From Planctomycetaceae bacterium (lineage in GTDB: Bacteria > Planctomycetota > Planctomycetia > Pirellulales > Pirellulaceae), in contig JABHUV010000192.1 of assembly GCA_018658605.1 (NCBI GenBank), positions 1 to 9,908 on the forward strand: a stretch of DNA of 9,908 nucleotides, in the 5' to 3' direction. The number at the start of each line of letters is the position of its first letter. The stretch's first letter is position 1. The notes under the pieces were generated by a model that searched no databases, was not told the origin of the DNA, and saw nothing but the letters and a program-made list of their open reading frames with translations. Both the position numbers and the translations under genes were made by a program. Below, piece after piece: positions 616 through 9,908 of the stretch.

Positions 616-1890
616 ATGTTGTTAAAAAAAATTGGTCTCATTTTTGCCATAACGTTTGCCTGCACTTTGGCGTTGCGCGCGGAAGATCCTCGTTGGCTCA
701 AAGGCAATATTCACACACATTCATTTTGGAGCGACGGCAATCAATTTCCAGAAATGATCGCTCAGTGGTACGTAGATCGCAATTATCAATTTCTAGCATT
801 GTCAGATCATAACATCCTTAGCAAGGGCGAGAAATGGATGCCCTACGCGACATTAATAAAACGAGGTGGAGAGGACGTGGTTGCCAAATATATTGCCGCC
901 TTTGGCAAAGATTGGGTTGCAACTCGGGGAGACCCAGGAACCGCCGATTATGCCATTCGGCTGAAAACGCTCGAAGAGTTCCGTGGCAAAGTTGAATCAA
1001 CGGACAATTTTTTGATGATTCAATCCGAAGAGATATCGGATCGTTCTCAGGGTGGTCCAGTCCATATGAATGCCACCAATATCCAAGAGTTAATTCCTCC
1101 CGTTGGGGGAGCGACTGTGCGTGAAGCGATGACTAATAATCTGCGGGCAGTTGCAGAACAGGCAAAACGTACAGGCAAGCCGATTGTTTTGCATTTAAAT
1201 CATCCTAATTTTGGATATGCAGTTACCGCTGAGGATATCGCATCCGTCGTGATGGAACGTTACGTCGAGATCTACAATGGTCATCCTGGTGTCAACGTCG
1301 GCGGAGATGATGAACATGCCAGCATGGAAGAAATCTGGGATATTGCCAATACGATTCGCTTGGTGCAACTAGGTGCGGCACCTTTGTTCGGCGTTGGTAC
1401 CGATGATTCTCATCATTACCACGGCCGCGGCTCAAGTCGACCGGGCAGATCATGGATCATGGTGCGCTGCGACGATCTAGAGGCCGATGCAGTGACTTTG
1501 AAGATTCAAGAGGGTGATTTTTATTCATCTAGTGGCGTCACATTACGCGACGTTCAATATGACGCCAAGAAGAAAACCCTAGCAGTTACAATCAAGCCAC
1601 AAGCGGGAGTCACTTATAAAACACAGTTTATTGGTACGTTGAAATCGGTTGATCTCTCGGCAAAACCTCGTCTGGATAAAAATGGTAAACCACGCCGTAC
1701 AACCCATATCTATTCCAAGGATATTGGTAAAGTGCTCGGCGAATCCGAAGGAGTTGAGGCGACATATCAATTCACCGGCGATGAATTGTATGTGCGTGCG
1801 GTCGTAACGTCGTCCAAAAAACACACGGATCCGACGTTACCTAACCAAACAGAACAAGCTTGGACTCAGCCTGTCGGATGGAAAAAATAG
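616..1890 (+). CDS. Exported PHP-domain metallohydrolase
   Basis: A 424-residue protein starting at ATG 616, with AGAGGG (605-610) five bases upstream. Residues 1-22 form a signal peptide (two Lys, a hydrophobic stretch, then ALRA before EDP), so export is expected. The rest is a polymerase-and-histidinol-phosphatase (PHP) domain with a nearly complete set of metal-ligand candidates: HTHSFWSDG (His33, His35, Asp40), LSDHN (Asp64, His65), SEE (Glu138/139), PVHMN (His150), LHLNHP (His193, His196), NGHP (His223) and GTDDSHHYH (Asp264, His266). PHP proteins usually hydrolyse phosphoesters using two or three metal ions. The substrate here is unknown. The roughly 140 C-terminal residues are beta-rich, with no family I recognise. 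The gene ends in tandem TAG TAG and is followed after 19 bases by the heme protein, so the two are very likely co-transcribed. Export of a PHP enzyme points to an extracytoplasmic phosphoester or a lost phosphatase specificity. Confidence 0.9.
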   Translation: MLLKKIGLIFAITFACTLALRAEDPRWLKGNIHTHSFWSDGNQFPEMIAQWYVDRNYQFLALSDHNILSKGEKWMPYATLIKRGGEDVVAKYIAAFGKDWVATRGDPGTADYAIRLKTLEEFRGKVESTDNFLMIQSEEISDRSQGGPVHMNATNIQELIPPVGGATVREAMTNNLRAVAEQAKRTGKPIVLHLNHPNFGYAVTAEDIASVVMERYVEIYNGHPGVNVGGDDEHASMEEIWDIANTIRLVQLGAAPLFGVGTDDSHHYHGRGSSRPGRSWIMVRCDDLEADAVTLKIQEGDFYSSSGVTLRDVQYDAKKKTLAVTIKPQAGVTYKTQFIGTLKSVDLSAKPRLDKNGKPRRTTHIYSKDIGKVLGESEGVEATYQFTGDELYVRAVVTSSKKHTDPTLPNQTEQAWTQPVGWKK

Positions 1891-1909
1891 TAGAAAAAAG
1901 GGGGCCATA

Positions 1910-4900
1910 GTGCGAGCCAAACTAGTAACAACGCTTTTGATATGCGCATTAAGCTGTATAGTCACACCAGTCACTGCGCAGACGATCGAGCAACAATTAC
2001 AACAGATGCTTCCATCTGATTTGGTGAATCGCATTAACGCAGACGGAGATCCGCAGCGCGGTGCGATTCTGTTTTACCAATCGTTCCTGTCTTGTTCGAA
2101 GTGTCATGATGAGGCTCAAGGCAAACGTGCGTTGGGTCCAACATTGACGCGTTATGACAAGAAACCTACGGATGAACTTTTAATCGAAGCGTTGTTGGAG
2201 CCCTCAAAATCTATTCGGTCTGGATATGATACGGTCGCGGTGTTATTCAATGATGGCACGCAAGTGACGGGAATTTTGGAGACTAAGTCTAAGACTGAAA
2301 TCGTGCTTAAAGATGTAAGTCGACCCGGCGGTACGCTGACGTTTTCGCTTGACGATATCGACGAACTGCATGCGATTAAAGCATCGATCATGCCGCAAGG
2401 GCAGGTAAATCAATTGGCAAGTAAACAACAGTTTTACGACTTGATGAGATATTTGTTCGTGATTCGTGATGACGGTCCGTTAGCAGCCTTGCGTTTAGAG
2501 CCGCCGCCATCGCTAGTGGCAGCGCGAAAGTTGCCCGAGTATGAATCGAAAATCGATCATGCTGGGATGATCGGCTCACTGGACAAAACTAGCTTTAGCC
2601 GGGGTGCCGTGATTTATAACAGGCTATGTGTTAATTGCCACGGTGACCATCAGCGGGTTGGTTCGTTGCCCACATCACGTCGTTTCACCAAAGATGTGAT
2701 GAAAAATGGGGCGGATCCGTTTGCGATGTACCAAACATTGACACGCGGATTTGGTTTAATGGCACCGCAGTCTTGGATGGTACCCCAACAAAAATATGAT
2801 GTTATTCATTACTTGCGAGAGACGTTTTTTCGTAACGACAATGCGAGTCAATATACAGCGGTAACCGATCAGTATTTAGCGACGCTTCCCGCTGGCGACA
2901 CCCGTGGGCCTGAGCCATCGAATATTAATAAGTGGCAACAGATGAATTACGGTCACCAGTTAACGGCGACCTACGAAGTCGGAAACGATGCCTCGAACTT
3001 CACTTATAAAGGGATCGCGCAACGGTTAGATGCGGGTCAAGGCGGTATCACCAACGGCGATGCGTTTATGGTGTTTGACCATGACACCATGCGGTTATCT
3101 GCGGCGTGGCAGGGCAAGGGGTTTATTGATTTCAACGGGATCAATTTTAATGGCAGGCATAACGCCCATCCGCGGCTAGTTGGCGAAGTGGTATTTGAAA
3201 ACAAGAGTGGTCCAGGTTGGGCAAACCCTGAGGATGGTTCGTGGGATGACCCACGTATTGTTGGTCGTGACGGACGACGTTATGGCCCGTTGCCACGGGA
3301 ATGGGCACAATACCGTGGGCTTTATCATCACGATAACCAAACGATTATTAGCTATACGGTGGGCGACGTGCCGGTATTGGAAACCGCGTCGAGGGATGAA
3401 ACGGCAGATGGTGTCGTTTTTAAACGCACACTAAATATGGGTAAACGAACTCGTCCGTTTGAATTTGCGGTTGCTAGCGTGGGGGCTGATGAAATTGTCG
3501 AACTACGACAACCTGCCAGTCATGCTAAAACGATTCGGTTTGGACCATTGGTTGTGGGAGTTGAATCGGATGTCAATGGCTGGAAGTGGATACAGGGCGA
3601 AAATGGGCAGTTACGTCTCACCATTCCTGTTGGTAAGACAACACAATTTACGGTGTGGGTACGGCGTATTGGTAAAAGTCAATTGGCCGAGAAGTTAATC
3701 AACTACACACCAACGCGAGGGCCAGATTTGTCAACGTTGCTTCGCGGTAGCGCGGCGCGGTGGTCTCAAAAAATCATAACGCAAGCGAAGATTGGATCAC
3801 AGCAAGGCGCCTTTCAGACTGACGTGTTACAGCATCCTGTGGATAATCCATGGTACGCGCAGGTACGCATGACAGGGTTTGATTTTTTTGCTGATTCCAA
3901 TCGTATGGCCGTAAGTACATGGGACGGCGACGTGTGGTTGGTTGAAGGAGTGGCTGATCCACTGGGACAGGAATTAGTTTGGCAACGCATTGCTACAGGG
4001 TTGTTTCAACCGCTCGGAGTTAAGATTGTTAACGATAAAATCTACGTTGGTTGTCGTGATCAAATTTGTGTTTTACATGACCTCAACGGCGATGGCGAAA
4101 CAGATTGGTATGAATGCTTCAATAATGACCATCAAGTAACCGATCATTTCCATGAGTTTGCGATGGGATTGCAGCGTGACGAATCGGGGAATTTCTATTA
4201 TGCAAAATCAGCAAGACATGCACTCAAAGCAATCGTACCGCATCATGGGACGCTACTGCGAGTCAGTCCTGATGGGAAGAAAACGGATATCATAGCCAAG
4301 GGTTTTAGAGCTGCCAACGGCGTTTGTCTTAACGAAGATGGCTCATTCATAGTGACGGATCAAGAAGGTCATTGGAATCCAAAGAATCGTATTAACTGGG
4401 TTCGAGAAGGTGGGTTTTACGGGAATATGTATGGCTACCATGATGTTACCGATAGCTCTGATGCTGCGATGGAGCAGCCGTTAGTTTGGATTACTAACGC
4501 CTTTGATCGTTCACCAGGTGAACTACTGTGGGTAAATTCAAAAAAATGGGGGCCACTTAACGGACAACTGCTTAACTTGTCTTATGGATATGGCAAGGTG
4601 TATGTCGTTCCGCATGAAACGATAGATGGCCAAGTACAGGGGGGGATGTGCGAATTACCGATAGCACAATTTCCAACAGGAGTTATGCGAGGTCGTTTTC
4701 ATCCTGGTAACGAACAACTGTATGCTTGTGGCATGTTTGCGTGGGCCGGTAGTCAGACTCAAGCAGGTGGTTTTTATCGCTTACGTTACACGGGGAAAAA
4801 TGTTCACTTGCCAATCAAGGTCGAAGCCACCACGCGTGGGATGAAATTGACTTTCACGGATCCAATAGAACCAAGCATCGCGAAGGATGTTGCCAATTAT

Positions 4901-5134
4901 CAAGTTAAACAATGGGCACTGAAACGAACTGCAAATTACGGTTCGAAACATTATGATGAGCAAATGCTTAAGATTTCCGGCGTGAGTCTGTCTAATGATG
5001 GGCATTCTGTGTTGATTGAAATGTCAGCCATCAAGCCTACTTGGTGTATGGAAATAAAATACCAACTACAAGGTTTAACGGGCGACACTTTTCAAGGAAC
5101 TATTCACAACACAATTCATGCCTTAAGTGAGTAG
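1910..5134 (+). CDS. Secreted di-heme cytochrome c / DUF6797-like / beta-propeller dehydrogenase-like protein
   Basis: A 1074-residue protein starting at GTG 1910, with a purine-rich AGGGGG just upstream. Signal peptide about 1-23 (ends PVTA). The order of parts is as follows. Residues ~45-180 are a Pirellula/Verrucomicrobium-type heme-binding domain with CSKCH (Cys62, Cys65, His66), a downstream LEPSKSIRSGYD segment and SIMPQG (Met161). Residues ~228-305 are a second cytochrome c with CVNCH (Cys240, Cys243, His244) and axial-ligand candidates Met284 or Met290. Residues ~343-487 are a DUF6797-like region (NYGHQL to YTVGDVPVLE). Residues ~645-970 are a membrane-bound-dehydrogenase-type beta-propeller, with a calcium-loop-like DLNGDGETD at 724-732. 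Residues ~975-1074 are a beta-sandwich-like C-terminus ending NTIHAL. Two covalent hemes plus a propeller suggest a periplasmic redox enzyme passing electrons to the cytochromes. The substrate, possibly a sugar or alcohol, is inference. It sits 19 bases after the PHP gene and 52 before the PQQ-like gene. Confidence 0.88.
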   Translation: MRAKLVTTLLICALSCIVTPVTAQTIEQQLQQMLPSDLVNRINADGDPQRGAILFYQSFLSCSKCHDEAQGKRALGPTLTRYDKKPTDELLIEALLEPSKSIRSGYDTVAVLFNDGTQVTGILETKSKTEIVLKDVSRPGGTLTFSLDDIDELHAIKASIMPQGQVNQLASKQQFYDLMRYLFVIRDDGPLAALRLEPPPSLVAARKLPEYESKIDHAGMIGSLDKTSFSRGAVIYNRLCVNCHGDHQRVGSLPTSRRFTKDVMKNGADPFAMYQTLTRGFGLMAPQSWMVPQQKYDVIHYLRETFFRNDNASQYTAVTDQYLATLPAGDTRGPEPSNINKWQQMNYGHQLTATYEVGNDASNFTYKGIAQRLDAGQGGITNGDAFMVFDHDTMRLSAAWQGKGFIDFNGINFNGRHNAHPRLVGEVVFENKSGPGWANPEDGSWDDPRIVGRDGRRYGPLPREWAQYRGLYHHDNQTIISYTVGDVPVLETASRDETADGVVFKRTLNMGKRTRPFEFAVASVGADEIVELRQPASHAKTIRFGPLVVGVESDVNGWKWIQGENGQLRLTIPVGKTTQFTVWVRRIGKSQLAEKLINYTPTRGPDLSTLLRGSAARWSQKIITQAKIGSQQGAFQTDVLQHPVDNPWYAQVRMTGFDFFADSNRMAVSTWDGDVWLVEGVADPLGQELVWQRIATGLFQPLGVKIVNDKIYVGCRDQICVLHDLNGDGETDWYECFNNDHQVTDHFHEFAMGLQRDESGNFYYAKSARHALKAIVPHHGTLLRVSPDGKKTDIIAKGFRAANGVCLNEDGSFIVTDQEGHWNPKNRINWVREGGFYGNMYGYHDVTDSSDAAMEQPLVWITNAFDRSPGELLWVNSKKWGPLNGQLLNLSYGYGKVYVVPHETIDGQVQGGMCELPIAQFPTGVMRGRFHPGNEQLYACGMFAWAGSQTQAGGFYRLRYTGKNVHLPIKVEATTRGMKLTFTDPIEPSIAKDVANYQVKQWALKRTANYGSKHYDEQMLKISGVSLSNDGHSVLIEMSAIKPTWCMEIKYQLQGLTGDTFQGTIHNTIHALSE

Positions 5135-5186
5135 CGTTTAACCTCAGTTGTATTCTTACCTAGTTCTTATGCTCGAGCGAAAATCA

Positions 5187-6506
5187 ATGAATAAATCCAT
5201 ACTGCTTTTAATGTTACCACTCATGGTCTGCTGCTCGACTCTGTTGGGCGACGACTGGCCGCATTGGTTGGGCTCTAGTCGAGACGGCGTTTGGCACGAA
5301 ACAGGGATTGTCACTAAAATCACGGCTGAAGGTTTGCCAGTGAAATGGCGAGTACCCATTGCGGGAGGGTATTCTGGACCCGCAGTGGCAAACGGTAAAG
5401 TGTTTGTAACTGATTACCAGCGTCTTACCGGTGATGCTACCAATGGTCCCAGTCTCAGGACCAAGATCACAGGAATTGAAAGATTGCATTGTTTGGATAG
5501 AACGACAGGGAAAAAAATATGGACATACAAATATATGTGTCCATATTACGTTTCCTATCCTTCAGGCCCGCGAGCCACACCGGCTGTGAGTGATGGGCGA
5601 GTTTATTCGCTGGGAACTGAGGGTAACCTTGTTTGCTTAGACGTTCAGTCGGGAAAGGTCTTTTGGCAAAAAGAACTGAAAAAAGACTACGGTATCAAAA
5701 CACCTGTTTGGGGCTTCTGTTCTCATCCGCTAATTATCGGAGACTTGTTGTATTTGATGGTCGGGGGCGAAGGCACGACCATCGTCGCATTTGATAAGAG
5801 TAGTGGAAAGCAGATGTGGGCTGCTTTGGACAGTGAAGAAGCTGGATATTGTCAGCCCACCTTGATTACTGCTGGCGGTGTGCAGCAACTTGTTGTTTGG
5901 ACCCCAACGGCTATTCACGGCATGCATCCCAAAACGGGCGATCTGTATTGGCAAGTCGACTTGCAACCAGCTTACGGGATGTCTGTGGTGTCACCTCGTC
6001 ATTACGGCGATTATCTGTTTGCTAGTGGTATTGGAAACGTGGGGGTTTGCTTGAAATTAGATCGCGACAAACCTGCCGTAACTGAAGTTTGGCGGGGCAC
6101 GTCAACCACGGGAGTCTATTGCAGCAATAGTACACCTATTATCGACAACGGCATTATTTATGGTGTTGGATGTCGCAAGGGCGAACTACGAGCGGTAGAG
6201 TTGGAAACGGGTAAACGGTTATGGGAATCATTTAAACCAACAACCGGAAGCCGACCACAAAATCACGGAACGGCTTTTTTGACTCGACAAGCGGATCAAT
6301 ATTTATTGTTCAACGAATCCGGTGAGTTAGTATTAGCGGATTTAACCCCTAGTGGGTATCAGGAAAAAGGGCGTATGTCGTTGCTTGAGCCCACTGGAGA
6401 AGCATTCGGACGTAAGGTCGTATGGGCAGCGCCGGCGTTTGCCAATCGATGTTTGTTTGTGCGAAATGACAAAGAAATTATTTGTGTAGATCTATCCGGT
6501 AAATAA
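5187..6506 (+). CDS. Exported PQQ-like beta-propeller repeat protein
   Basis: A 439-residue protein. I chose ATG 5187 because it places the charged MNKS directly before the hydrophobic signal segment. The frame is open back to a TTG at 5148, but that adds 13 residues and no ribosome site. The Shine-Dalgarno for 5187 is weak (GAGCGA, 5175-5180). Signal peptide about 1-21, with mature start near DDWPHWLG. Cys15-Cys16 follow LMV, not a canonical lipobox. The body is a propeller of PQQ/PQQ_2 type. Five repeats carry the characteristic 'D-x3-G-K-x2-W' docking pattern, with Trp112, Trp160, Trp211, Trp255 and Trp346, for example LDRTTGKKIWTY and VELETGKRLWES. Proteins of this kind are common in planctomycetes. 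Most are assembly or binding scaffolds or quinoprotein-like, and nothing here proves that PQQ is bound. Its position behind the di-heme protein suggests a role in the same periplasmic redox or degradative system. Confidence 0.88.
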   Translation: MNKSILLLMLPLMVCCSTLLGDDWPHWLGSSRDGVWHETGIVTKITAEGLPVKWRVPIAGGYSGPAVANGKVFVTDYQRLTGDATNGPSLRTKITGIERLHCLDRTTGKKIWTYKYMCPYYVSYPSGPRATPAVSDGRVYSLGTEGNLVCLDVQSGKVFWQKELKKDYGIKTPVWGFCSHPLIIGDLLYLMVGGEGTTIVAFDKSSGKQMWAALDSEEAGYCQPTLITAGGVQQLVVWTPTAIHGMHPKTGDLYWQVDLQPAYGMSVVSPRHYGDYLFASGIGNVGVCLKLDRDKPAVTEVWRGTSTTGVYCSNSTPIIDNGIIYGVGCRKGELRAVELETGKRLWESFKPTTGSRPQNHGTAFLTRQADQYLLFNESGELVLADLTPSGYQEKGRMSLLEPTGEAFGRKVVWAAPAFANRCLFVRNDKEIICVDLSGK

Positions 6507-6557
6507 AAAGAGATACGACAGTTAAGGTACTGATTGTTATTTTGGGGAAAGTGGAAA

Positions 6558-8078
6558 ATGATGAAGCGCAAGAGATTTGCCTCGGTGGTTTCATTCGCTG
6601 TTGTTGTGTTTTGTTGTGGTGTTCTCACGGAGATGGCCCAGGCCGTAAAGCCACCGAGTAGCGGTGACAGACAAATTGATTTGTTACAACGCAATGTGCC
6701 TGCGGATGCAGCAAATGCTGATCTGGAGATGTTGCAAAAGATCATGGTGGAAATGCATCCAGGACTCGATATTTATGCAACCCAAAAGCAATTCGCTGAG
6801 TTAGTTGAACAATCTCGCGTGCAGGCAGGTGCTACTATCAAGCTGCGTGAATTTTTCATGAGATGTGCGAGGATTACAGATCTTGTGCGTTGTGGGCATA
6901 CCTATGCCAGCGTCCCGCTTGCCTGCCAAATGAAATTGCAATACGCAATTAAAATGTTTCCTGTACCCCTGATGTTTATTGATCAAAAAGCGTATGTGAA
7001 CCATCATCAATCCAAAATTCCCTGCGGTGCAGAAGTGTTGTCCATTAATAACGTCGCAGTGGACGAGATCGTGCAAGTTTTGATGCCCTTGGTTACTGGA
7101 GATGGCTACGTCAACACGTTTAGATATAAATTTTTAGGGGAGATGTTTTCCATTTCCTATGCCACGGCGTATGGAGAGGCAAAACAATTTCAGGTTCAAT
7201 ATCGGACATTAAAAGGGGAAACAAACACGATCAGGGTAGCCGGAGTGTCGTCCCATCGCTTGGAACAGTTGATGGAATCGGTGGCATTGGGAGGGCCACA
7301 AGACGAAGCTTATCGTATGTCTCGACCTCGTGAAGATACCGTACTTATGGCAATCGATACGTTTGATAACGGTCAAGGTTCGCCGTCGTTTCGTATTTAC
7401 CGAAAGCTAATAACTAAAGCGTTTGCGATGATGCATCGAACGGATACTATTACCAACTTGATATTGGACCTTAGACAAAACGACGGTGGATATACTCGCA
7501 GTGAGATGTTTTTATATTCTTTCTTGGCAAATAAACCATTTAAGGAAATGTCTAGTGGACAAACCAACCGTAATAGCATTGCATTTCGTGAACTTCTCAG
7601 CCGCAACTATCAATCCCGTGGCGTTATAAAGTATTTTGATCGCCGCTTGCAACGAGAAATGGTTGCGGAGGATGATCAAATGTGGGAGTTACAGGACGAG
7701 TGGATTGTCCAAGGCGTACCGTCGGAACATCGTTTCAAGGGAAACGTCTTTGTGCTAACGGGCGGTCGCACGCACTCCGCAGCATCGGCAATTTGTACGC
7801 GACTTAAAGAGCACGGCGGTGCTGTATTCATAGGTGAAGAAACAGGTGGTGTGGAAGGTGTCTTCACTGCAGGCACAACGCTCTATTATGAACTTCCTAA
7901 TACCGGTGTTGAATTGGCTGTGCCAATTCTCAAATATAACAATCTGGCCAAAATGCCAAAGGATCCTGGTAGAGGAATCGTGCCAAATCATAAAGTGTCC
8001 ATTCGTCCCGAGGACTTGGTCAGCGGTGAGGACAGAGTGCTTGACTTCACATTGGAGTTAATTGAGGACCTCAAGTGA
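6558..8078 (+). CDS. Exported S41-family (C-terminal-processing-like) peptidase
   Basis: A 506-residue protein. ATG 6558 (or the adjacent ATG 6561) is preferred because it opens a typical signal peptide (MMKRKR, then a long hydrophobic run ending EMAQA, about residue 29) and has GGGGA (6544-6548) nine bases upstream. A TTG at 6534 would put extra residues before the positive charges. After export come a helical cap with the N-terminal S41 pattern (EMHPGLDIYATQKQF, then CGHTYASVPL at about 112-121) and a PDZ-like stretch near 150-180 (CGAEVLSINNVAVDEIV). The S41 catalytic domain holds LILDLRQNDGG (Asp304 to Gly311), the nucleophile box LTGGRTHSAASA (Ser407) and GEETGG (426-431). These resemble S41 relatives of the tricorn/IRBP side more than CtpA. 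The general base is not identified with confidence. The gene ends with TGA and lies 51 bases after the propeller gene, so it probably shares that operon. It may act on periplasmic peptides. Confidence 0.87.
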   Translation: MMKRKRFASVVSFAVVVFCCGVLTEMAQAVKPPSSGDRQIDLLQRNVPADAANADLEMLQKIMVEMHPGLDIYATQKQFAELVEQSRVQAGATIKLREFFMRCARITDLVRCGHTYASVPLACQMKLQYAIKMFPVPLMFIDQKAYVNHHQSKIPCGAEVLSINNVAVDEIVQVLMPLVTGDGYVNTFRYKFLGEMFSISYATAYGEAKQFQVQYRTLKGETNTIRVAGVSSHRLEQLMESVALGGPQDEAYRMSRPREDTVLMAIDTFDNGQGSPSFRIYRKLITKAFAMMHRTDTITNLILDLRQNDGGYTRSEMFLYSFLANKPFKEMSSGQTNRNSIAFRELLSRNYQSRGVIKYFDRRLQREMVAEDDQMWELQDEWIVQGVPSEHRFKGNVFVLTGGRTHSAASAICTRLKEHGGAVFIGEETGGVEGVFTAGTTLYYELPNTGVELAVPILKYNNLAKMPKDPGRGIVPNHKVSIRPEDLVSGEDRVLDFTLELIEDLK

Positions 8079-8083
8079 GCAGC

Positions 8084-8318
8084 ATGAGCACAAGGAATCG
8101 ATCTGCGGTAAAGTCGCTCTTGGTGAGTATTGTGCTAGTTGCGAGTTGCGCTCTCATTCCAGCTCCGACCGTTTAAATGGGAAGTTGGCTTCTTCATTGG
8201 TCAAATGGGAAAACAAATTGGGCGCAATGAAGAGGTTTTTGGTGACGCAGCGTTAGCTGAATTTAAAGAGGCACTGCGAATCCACAAAAAAATCATGGAA
8301 CGAGTGATCGAGCAGTAG
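8084..8318 (+). pseudogene. Small lipoprotein-like gene in two frames (frameshifted)
   Basis: The frame from ATG 8084 gives a 30-residue peptide that is almost only a signal sequence: basic MSTRNRSAVK, a hydrophobic run, and LVASC resembling a lipobox (Cys22). It stops at TAA 8174-8176 right after the signal. In the +1 frame, coding-like sequence continues at once (KWEVGFFIGQMGKQIGRNEE, then an amphipathic helix ending MERVIEQ) and stops at TAG 8316-8318. Removing one T from the TTTAAA run at 8172-8177 joins the halves into a 77-residue exported lipoprotein-like protein. Alternatives are a real inactivating frameshift, a base-calling error in this assembly, a programmed +1 shift at GTT TAA, or two separate mini-ORFs (the second from TTG 8139 or ATG 8205, without ribosome sites). 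It begins five bases after the S41 stop, so translation is probably coupled. I recognise no family. Confidence 0.5.
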
Positions 8319-8354
8319 TGAAGTTGTTAGTAGGTCTGTTTTAATGGCGCGAGC

Positions 8355-9140
8355 ATGAGCCAAACAAATTGTTACGACTATCCCCAGTACTGGGATTTAG
8401 CGTTTGCCGATGAAACCGGACAGGAATGTGAGTTTCTGGTCCAGTGTTCACAAAAGCATCTTTCTGGTGACGCCAAACGTATTCTCGAGCCAGGCTGTGG
8501 TGGTGGCCGGTTGGTAGTAGCGTTGGCGTCACGTGGTTATGATGTGACCGGTTATGATCTTAGCAACGCCGCAATTGATTATTTACAACAACGTTTGGAT
8601 AACGAAGGTTTGCAAGCCCGTGCGGTTGTAGCTGACATGCAGTCTTTTGTAGCTTCGCCGCCAGTTGATATCGCAATCAACACAGTCAGCACATTTCGAC
8701 ACTTGCTTACCGAGCAAGCTGCTTTAGCACATTTGAGAGTAATGGCGGAAAGTATTCGGCCAAAGGGGCTCTACATTATTGGCATGCATTTATTGCCTCC
8801 TGACGCTGACCTGGAAGATGAGGAATTGTGGGAAGCGGAAGATGACGCGGCTAAAGTGACAATGCGGTTAACCGTTCTCGAGGCATCGCGGGAAAATAGG
8901 CAGGAAGTATTGCGATTTGACATGAGCGTTGTAGACATCGAGGCGGAGGAAGATGATTCACGGGAATTCAGTTCTGAATATCCAATGCGGTTATATTCAG
9001 CGACACAGATTCAAGAGTTGTTTAGTCAGGTCAGCGAGTTTGAGTTAATTGAGGTTTATGATTATTGGTATGACATCAACGAGCCCCAACCGTTAGATGA
9101 TCGGCTAGGTGATGCTGTGTTTGTATTGCGTCGCCGCTAG
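8355..9140 (+). CDS. Class I SAM-dependent methyltransferase
   Basis: A 261-residue protein from ATG 8355. No strong Shine-Dalgarno is visible, only GCGAGC directly ahead. The N-terminus (YDYPQYWDLAFADETGQECE) is the usual lead-in of small-molecule methyltransferases. Motif I is ILEPGCGGGRLV (residues 43-54), the glycine loop that binds S-adenosylmethionine. Motif II is VTGYDLS with the acidic Asp68 that usually holds the ribose. Asp94-Met95 in VVADMQSF is the adenine-contact region, and INTVSTFRHL (108-117) is the motif IV region. There is no signal peptide, so it is cytoplasmic. The C-terminal half is strongly acidic (LEDEELWEAEDDA, VDIEAEEDDSRE) and ends in a beta strand, AVFVLRRR. The substrate is unknown. 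Its stop codon overlaps the stop of the convergent selenoprotein gene by four bases. Confidence 0.88.
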   Translation: MSQTNCYDYPQYWDLAFADETGQECEFLVQCSQKHLSGDAKRILEPGCGGGRLVVALASRGYDVTGYDLSNAAIDYLQQRLDNEGLQARAVVADMQSFVASPPVDIAINTVSTFRHLLTEQAALAHLRVMAESIRPKGLYIIGMHLLPPDADLEDEELWEAEDDAAKVTMRLTVLEASRENRQEVLRFDMSVVDIEAEEDDSREFSSEYPMRLYSATQIQELFSQVSEFELIEVYDYWYDINEPQPLDDRLGDAVFVLRRR

Positions 9141-9727
9141 CTATTGCGAAAATCAGCCTTGTCAGCTCGCCATTGCCCAATCGGGGAGTTCATCGAATCT
9201 TCAAGATCGACTCCGAGACCATCGGCAATGCGATTGATGTAGTTAAAATAGGCGATGACTTGCACAGCAATGGTGATTTGTGCGTCATTGAATCCGGCAG
9301 AGTGTAGTTGCGTTACATCGCTCTCAGTCATGGTGTGCGGAGTTAGGGTGAGCTTGACTGCGTATGCACAAAGAGCTTGATCCGCGGCGTTTAGTCGAGC
9401 GTTGCGATAATCGTATGCCAGTGCAGTAGCCGCTGTTGGGTCATTGGACTCCAGACCGAAGTCGTGCGAATGTGAGAGTGTTCAGTAATAGCAATCATTG
9501 GTGCCCGAGACGACCGTGGCTAGCATTTCTTTTTGCTGCGGGGAAAGGGCATTCGGGGATTTCATCAGTTTGATGTAAAACTGCATCGAAGCGTTTAGTG
9601 TCTCGACATCGTGACTCATGACGCGAATGATGTTGGCGAGGCCGCCGGAACGGTCGCGGGCAAGTTCATATGCTTGCTGTAGCAGACCACTTGCTTCGCT
9701 CTCGCTGATTTGTGAAATGTACGCCAT
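9137..9727 (-). CDS. AhpD-like / peroxidase-related selenoprotein (CxxU), TGA read as selenocysteine
   Basis: One gene of 196 residues interrupted only by an in-frame TGA at 9484-9482. ATG 9727 is chosen because relatives start MAYI-like and GGAAAG (9742-9737) lies nine bases upstream. A TTG at 9748 would add seven residues. Before the TGA the protein follows the carboxymuconolactone decarboxylase/AhpD-type 'peroxidase-related enzyme' family: ISESEASGLLQQAYELARDR, NIIRVMSHDVETL, LSPQQKEMLATVVS. After it, the same frame continues with TLSHSHDFG, ALCAYAVKLT and QVIAYFNYINRIADGLGVDLE, the normal C-terminus. The AhpD signature E-x11-C-x2-C-x3-H is met exactly by Glu67, Cys79, position 82 (TGA) and His86. 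The TGA therefore replaces the second redox cysteine. A SECIS-like hairpin follows. The likely role is a cytoplasmic thiol/selenol peroxidase or disulfide reductase against peroxides. The gene lies 23 bases after an upstream minus-strand gene. A nonsense mutation or base error is the main alternative. Confidence 0.87.
9447..9463 (-). promoter_or_regulatory. Bacterial SECIS-like hairpin downstream of the selenocysteine TGA
   Basis: Read on the minus strand, GACUUC (9463-9458) pairs with GGAGUC (9452-9447) in six consecutive pairs, one of them U-G. The apical loop is GGUCU (9457-9453). The loop begins 25 bases after the TGA. Known bacterial SECIS elements lie inside the coding region just past UGA, carry a G among the first two loop bases and place the loop roughly 16-37 bases from UGA. 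This hairpin meets all three conditions. As I recall it, GGUCU is also the E. coli fdhF apical loop contacted by SelB. No clear lower stem reaches back to the TGA. Confidence 0.8.
9482..9484 (-). other. Selenocysteine codon (TGA) at residue 82
   Basis: In-frame TGA between CYY and TLSH in the AhpD-like gene. The codon sits at the resolving or peroxidatic second Cys of the CxxC motif, with Glu67 and His86 at exact family spacing. The S41 gene in this window ends with a TGA, so general reassignment of TGA to Trp is unlikely, and Trp would not fit the motif. Confidence 0.84.
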
Positions 9728-9750
9728 GTAGAAGAACTTTCCGGTCAATC

Positions 9751-9908
9751 CTATTGGTTTAAGTATTCGAGTCGTCGTTGCACAAGAGGTTCATGTGACC
9801 CTTTGATCTTCGCGGAATTCAATTGGAAATCGTAGTCATGGTGGTCACGTAGAAACACAACGGTATTAAGTGTGATGGCCGCGACCGTACCGGACGGATT
9901 GTTTGCTA
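9751..9908 (-). CDS. C-terminal end of an unrecognised gene (5' end outside window)
   Basis: On the minus strand an open frame enters at the right edge (first full codon at 9906) and ends with TAG at 9753-9751, giving the last 51 residues of a protein. The visible part reads like true coding sequence: a hydrophobic stretch TVAAITLNTVVFLRDH, then a polar and basic tail FQLNSAKIKGSHEPLVQRRL ending EYLNQ. The other two frames are stopped. I do not recognise the family. It ends 23 bases before the selenoprotein start, so the two are probably in one transcript. Its identity would help show what the selenoprotein works with. Confidence 0.6.
   Translation of the reverse strand, partial: ANNPSGTVAAITLNTVVFLRDHHDYDFQLNSAKIKGSHEPLVQRRLEYLNQ

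Follow-up and report, generated by a model that had tools for sequence, protein, structure and literature searches.

Results

The window analysed here, a stretch of 9,908 nucleotides from a Planctomycetaceae assembly (contig JABHUV010000192.1), carries on its minus strand a gene that almost certainly encodes an AhpD-like (peroxidase-related, TIGR01926) selenoprotein, with the TGA at 9484–9482 predicted to be read as selenocysteine (Sec) in the active site of this antioxidant-type enzyme. From an ATG at 9727 to a TAG at 9139–9137, the frame is open except for this single TGA. Gene calling splits the gene into two open reading frames (ORFs), 9748–9482 and 9331–9137, which share one frame and have the TGA as their sole intervening stop. 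An earlier note on this DNA had taken the two fragments for one gene that standard annotation would miss, with the TGA at the second Cys of an E-x11-C-x2-C-x3-H motif. A frame check confirmed the single frame, the two called ORFs bear out the expected annotation failure, and the motif residues fall where the note had placed them (E67-x11-C79-x2-U82-x3-H86, numbered from ATG 9727; Table 1). The predicted start is likely ATG 9727 rather than TTG 9748, because the alignment starts at residue 1 in 78 of 80 relatives; the exceptions are L002, in which a contig end cuts the gene, and L022, which aligns from residue 3. Homology is unbroken across the TGA, and the ATG at 9331 is therefore internal.

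Table 1 Features of the predicted selenoprotein gene and its neighbours in the window
Feature	Position	Strand	Basis
Predicted AhpD-like selenoprotein gene, 196 residues, ATG start, TAG stop	9137..9727	-	Open frame with one TGA; TIGR01926; start conserved
TGA predicted to be read as selenocysteine, residue 82	9482..9484	-	TGA in 79 of 80 relatives; Cys in solved relatives
Cys79 (TGC), first Cys position of motif	9491..9493	-	Cys codon in 80 of 80 loci
Glu67, proposed proton-relay residue	9527..9529	-	Spacing like AhpD Glu118
His86, proposed proton-relay residue	9470..9472	-	Invariant in alignments A1 and A2; compare AhpD His137
SECIS-like hairpin GACUUC-GGUCU-GGAGUC inside coding sequence	9447..9463	-	Codons 89–94 conserved beyond amino acid; stem pairing
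SAM-dependent methyltransferase, convergent, overlapping the selenoprotein gene end by 4 bases	8355..9140	+	Pfam Methyltransf_25
Sulfatase gene 3' end, upstream neighbour	9751..9906	-	88% identical to C-terminus of L001 protein matching Pfam Sulfatase

The read-through protein (P0001) matched the TIGR01926 model 'peroxidase-related enzyme' over residues 13–181 with 141.1 bits (cut-off 81.8), has the AhpD fold of this family and matched Pfam CMD with 27.0 bits (cut-off 23). The solved relatives 6k40, 2oyo and 2pfx align unbroken over the TGA and have Cys at that site.

With one genome scanned per species, 402 loci were confirmed; the best 80, chosen by their likeness to a TGA form, were kept. 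Codon 82 is TGA in 79 of the kept loci and TGC in the other (L054, from Candidatus Eisenbacteria), and all 80 carry a Cys codon at position 79. By record titles and tree taxonomy, the TGA loci belong to Planctomycetota, Verrucomicrobiota, Marinimicrobia (Fidelibacterota), Acidobacteriota, Chloroflexota and Myxococcota, with one unclassified. A protein search returned 167 matches, 120 of them listed; among those 120, 25 start exactly two codons past the TGA site, 30 have Trp at the site (for example, P0002, P0003, P0008 and P0011), six have Cys (P0004, P0005, P0006, P0007, P0009 and P0075), and the remainder have a different start, a different residue or a gap. Judging from the protein entries alone, the Trp entries most likely stem from gene callers that used a table with TGA as Trp. 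Three expectations of the earlier note held in these comparisons: one family spans both sides of the TGA, its members align across residue 82 with either TGA (79 of the 80 loci) or Cys (L054, the six proteins and five loci of the order-level sample below), and the recurrence of TGA at an identical codon excludes a chance nonsense mutation. No confirmed relative emerged from a viral-contig scan (17 pattern matches), and a plasmid search with window positions 9000–9908 gave no match.

Substitution ratios indicate that the gene is under purifying selection on both sides of the TGA: dN/dS (ratio of non-synonymous to synonymous substitution rates) against L001 was 0.094 before the TGA and 0.217 after it, and against L002 it was 0.120 before (35 codons) and 0.124 after. 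Conservation beyond the amino acid was measured with a synonymous-codon test on 44 thinned window-type rows (124 tested columns) and, separately, on 24 distant rows. In the window-type rows, codons 89–94 (mostly GAC TTC GGT CTG GAG TCC) had codon-conservation z-scores of 4.7–8.9, against a median of 0.29 over the 124 columns. Three Ser columns (38, 47 and 74) also scored 5.8–6.7, and Thr83 scored 4.2; in our judgement the Ser scores are due to the two codon boxes of serine. Of the hairpin codons, only 90 and 94 reached a z-score of 4 in the distant rows.

The hairpin at these codons resembles a bacterial selenocysteine insertion sequence (SECIS). The bacterial SECIS model that we used, taken from a 2026 review (PMC13188914), has a loop of 3–9 nt, a stem of 4–16 bp, a G in the first two loop positions, a position 16–37 nt after the UGA, and a minimum free energy (MFE) limit of −7.5 kcal/mol. 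The geometry of the window hairpin agrees with this model, with a 6-bp stem and a 5-nt loop (GGUCU) that begins with GG and lies 24 nt past the UGA. The stem pairs in 96.6% of cells across 56 window-type sequences, 54 of them distinct, versus 19–63% when the structure is slid by 1–3 columns. In 24 more distant sequences, the stem lies one base away from its window-type position and the loops include CGGGAU; here pairing holds in 87.5% of stem cells, and both partners are changed in 12 cells, against a shuffled mean of 2.9 and with none of 500 shuffles reaching 12. The structures were chosen on the tested sequences themselves, which favours them over the slid versions. In the Cys-type locus L054, GGT and stem are both absent by eye.

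Selenocysteine machinery was sought in two sister genomes, G001 (which carries L001) and G002 (which carries L002). The transfer RNA for selenocysteine (tRNA-Sec) scored 63.9 bits in both, with the anticodon UCA seen for G002; SelA scored 540.5 bits in G001 and 535.5 in G002, and SelD 350.4 and 349.0 bits, respectively. SelB scored 335 bits in G002 and is present in G001 as two contig-end pieces (232.4 and 146.0 bits, both below the cut-off of 242.25). Only cut-offs were used, because the default E-value is so loose that all genomes and all controls match. Across the 40 genomes behind L001–L040, to which the genome-level search was confined, tRNA-Sec was found in 34 and SelB over the cut-off in 35; among G001–G006, SelA was found in three and SelD in five of six. 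Each of the five SelD matches (G001, G002, G003, G005 and G006; L091, L092) has one in-frame TGA, and SelD is probably itself a selenoprotein by this sign. In a region of G002 (L111; contig 22, 29000–42000), tRNA-Sec, SelB and SelA fall in a stretch of about 12 kb; ARAGORN finds no tRNA there, yet the tRNA-Sec model matches.

We also surveyed 146 genomes from the order of G001, G001 included. An in-frame-TGA match of at least 80 bits was present in 14 of them. Thirteen loci fetched from 12 of these 14 genomes, together with L001 (G001) and L012 (G012), all have TGA at residue 82 (15 of 15), and the stop-free fetched matches (L096, L097, L108, L109 and L110) all have TGC. Extra stops were counted for L098 (a TAG) and L099 (a second stop), which may be normal gene ends, and weak TGA matches below 31 bits occurred in five genomes (G099, G089, G092, G080 and G049). 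SelB was found in 45 of the 146 genomes (E-value 1e-60 or better; 44 over the cut-off), as was tRNA-Sec (E-value 1e-9 or better), and all 14 TGA-form genomes fall within both lists. The hypergeometric probability of the co-occurrence of the TGA form with SelB is 1.4e-8, with kinship ignored.

A tree of 90 proteins, built with site 82 masked, nests the five Cys rows among Sec rows (midpoint root only); these require three changes, at least two of them by well-supported branches. From this topology Sec looks like the long-standing state in the clade and Cys like a replacement, in a sample biased to TGA-like loci.

A second, more distant AhpD-like group (L099–L107, from G122, G183, G049, G148, G044, G062 twice, G168 and G089; 31–37% identity) has TGA at the equivalent residue, with a candidate hairpin of another kind around TTCCTGCAGTTGCAGG. 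Against TIGR01926, L099 scored 119.2 bits and L104 102.7 bits.

The arrangement of the methyltransferase and the selenoprotein gene is identical in L001 and L002. The latter, a Planctomycetaceae metagenome-assembled genome (MAG), shares five window neighbours (616–9140) at 84–94% identity in addition to the AhpD-like gene, which fits the planctomycete-like host proposed in the earlier note. Elsewhere in the window, positions 1910–5134 encode a 1074-residue protein with DUF6797, cytochrome c and PVC-type heme-binding domains, 89% identical in L002. Rfam and ARAGORN gave no match in the window.

Discussion

On comparative sequence evidence, the TGA at 9484–9482 occupies the second position of a CxxC redox motif, behaves as a sense codon under constraint and is followed by a constrained hairpin, a combination that we read as a selenoprotein gene. 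Several observations weigh against this reading. The window hairpin has an MFE of −6.6 kcal/mol and misses the limit of the published model, within which the hairpins of two relatives fall (L001, −7.8; L007, −10.2); its folding z-score is 0.33, such scores being uninformative in the five stretches tried, and a 55-nt stretch folds differently. The window-type set shows little covariation: a single pair is altered at both partners (in 4 cells, while 4 further cells are unpaired), a level that 211 of 500 shuffles attain, and two slid versions have a higher covariation score than the hairpin. The machinery evidence comes from sister genomes and not from the window's own genome; six of the 40 genomes are without tRNA-Sec and five without SelB over the cut-off, with G004, G006 and G021 without both, and these may be incomplete MAGs. 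As to function, no partner gene was seen in the window, and the first of the two Cys is the more important one in Burkholderia thailandensis AhpD.

We infer the following enzymatic role for the AhpD-like selenoprotein. Sec would be inserted at residue 82 by SelB and Sec-tRNA acting at the hairpin. Sec82, which corresponds to Cys133 of Mycobacterium tuberculosis AhpD, is the somewhat favoured candidate for the attacking residue; it would reduce peroxide or the disulfide of a partner and form an Se–S bond with Cys79, which a dithiol donor (thioredoxin, a lipoyl protein or an AhpC-type partner) could then reset, with Glu67 and His86 as a possible proton relay. The protein may instead be a true selenoprotein that catalyses deiodinase-like reductive dehalogenation and not peroxide or disulfide reduction, which we consider improbable. 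The debrominase Bmp8 (6ohi), which is 17% identical to the window protein, is a Cys enzyme that carries out debromination, and in the open-licence literature we found no paper pairing Bmp8 with debrominase. A broader scenario is a comparably long shot: Sec would be the standing state across six phyla and Cys derived, and in marine planctomycetes and their relatives the reaction of the Sec enzyme would differ from that of Cys AhpD, for example deiodinase-like reductive dehalogenation on a Bmp8-type fold.

Could a nonsense change or a base-call error have split an ordinary Cys-type gene? The Cys forms described above do exist, and one base separates TGC from TGA, but the TGA recurs at the identical codon in loci from many assemblies, dN/dS after it stays at 0.217 (L001) and 0.124 (L002), and the hairpin is conserved, so that a pseudogene or error is very improbable. 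Least probable of all is that the TGA is decoded as some residue other than Sec, for instance as Trp under an altered genetic code, a reading that the 30 Trp-bearing database proteins would suit, but the S41 gene in the window terminates with TGA, no read-through is needed elsewhere, the aligned residue in solved relatives is Cys, and Sec machinery is present in the sister genomes.

A redox enzyme widespread in Planctomycetota and other phyla is largely misannotated, its relatives in the searched protein collection often being cut after the TGA or given Trp at the active site; the Trp-bearing entries could pass for inactive enzymes. Sec at one codon in nearly all of the retained loci, together with a hairpin inside the gene whose conservation goes beyond what the protein requires, makes a clean case that should be useful to selenoprotein finders and bears on the question of why Sec is retained instead of Cys.

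Among known systems, M. tuberculosis AhpD (1gu9) is 10% identical to the window protein, which has the Glu/Cys/Cys/His relay with AhpD spacing; the Mycobacterium enzyme has a His between its two Cys (His132, corresponding to Tyr81 here), and its partner AhpC was not found among the seven window proteins scanned. The peroxidase-related AhpD protein of Deinococcus radiodurans (6k40) has Cys where the window protein would have Sec. NF041238, the AhpD_rel_CFYUT (seleno)protein, is likewise AhpD-related and has a C-x-Y-U-T type motif, but its model is 357 positions long and P0001 scored 63.8 bits against a cut-off of 175, so membership was rejected.

The class itself is known, as the earlier note had said. 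AhpD-like CxxU proteins are described from the Sargasso Sea in 2005 (27 sequences; PMC1088965), AhpD-like 1 and 2 from the Global Ocean Sampling (GOS) data (299 and 70 sequences; PMC2398784), and 'AhpD-like protein, TIGR01926, CxxU' is listed in the 2026 review. Planctomycete selenoproteins and Sec genes are also in print (PMC4807772); AhpD does not occur in the main text of that paper, whose candidates are listed in supplementary tables. In the parts of the open-licence literature searched, we found no description of planctomycete AhpD-like selenoproteins and no paper pairing selenoprotein with Pirellulales. Likened by description and not by sequence, the published AhpD-like CxxU selenoproteins (COG2128/TIGR01926) share with the window protein the model, Sec at the second CxxC position and a hairpin past the UGA, and differ only in host and exact sequence; the gene adds a member to a recognised kind of selenoprotein.
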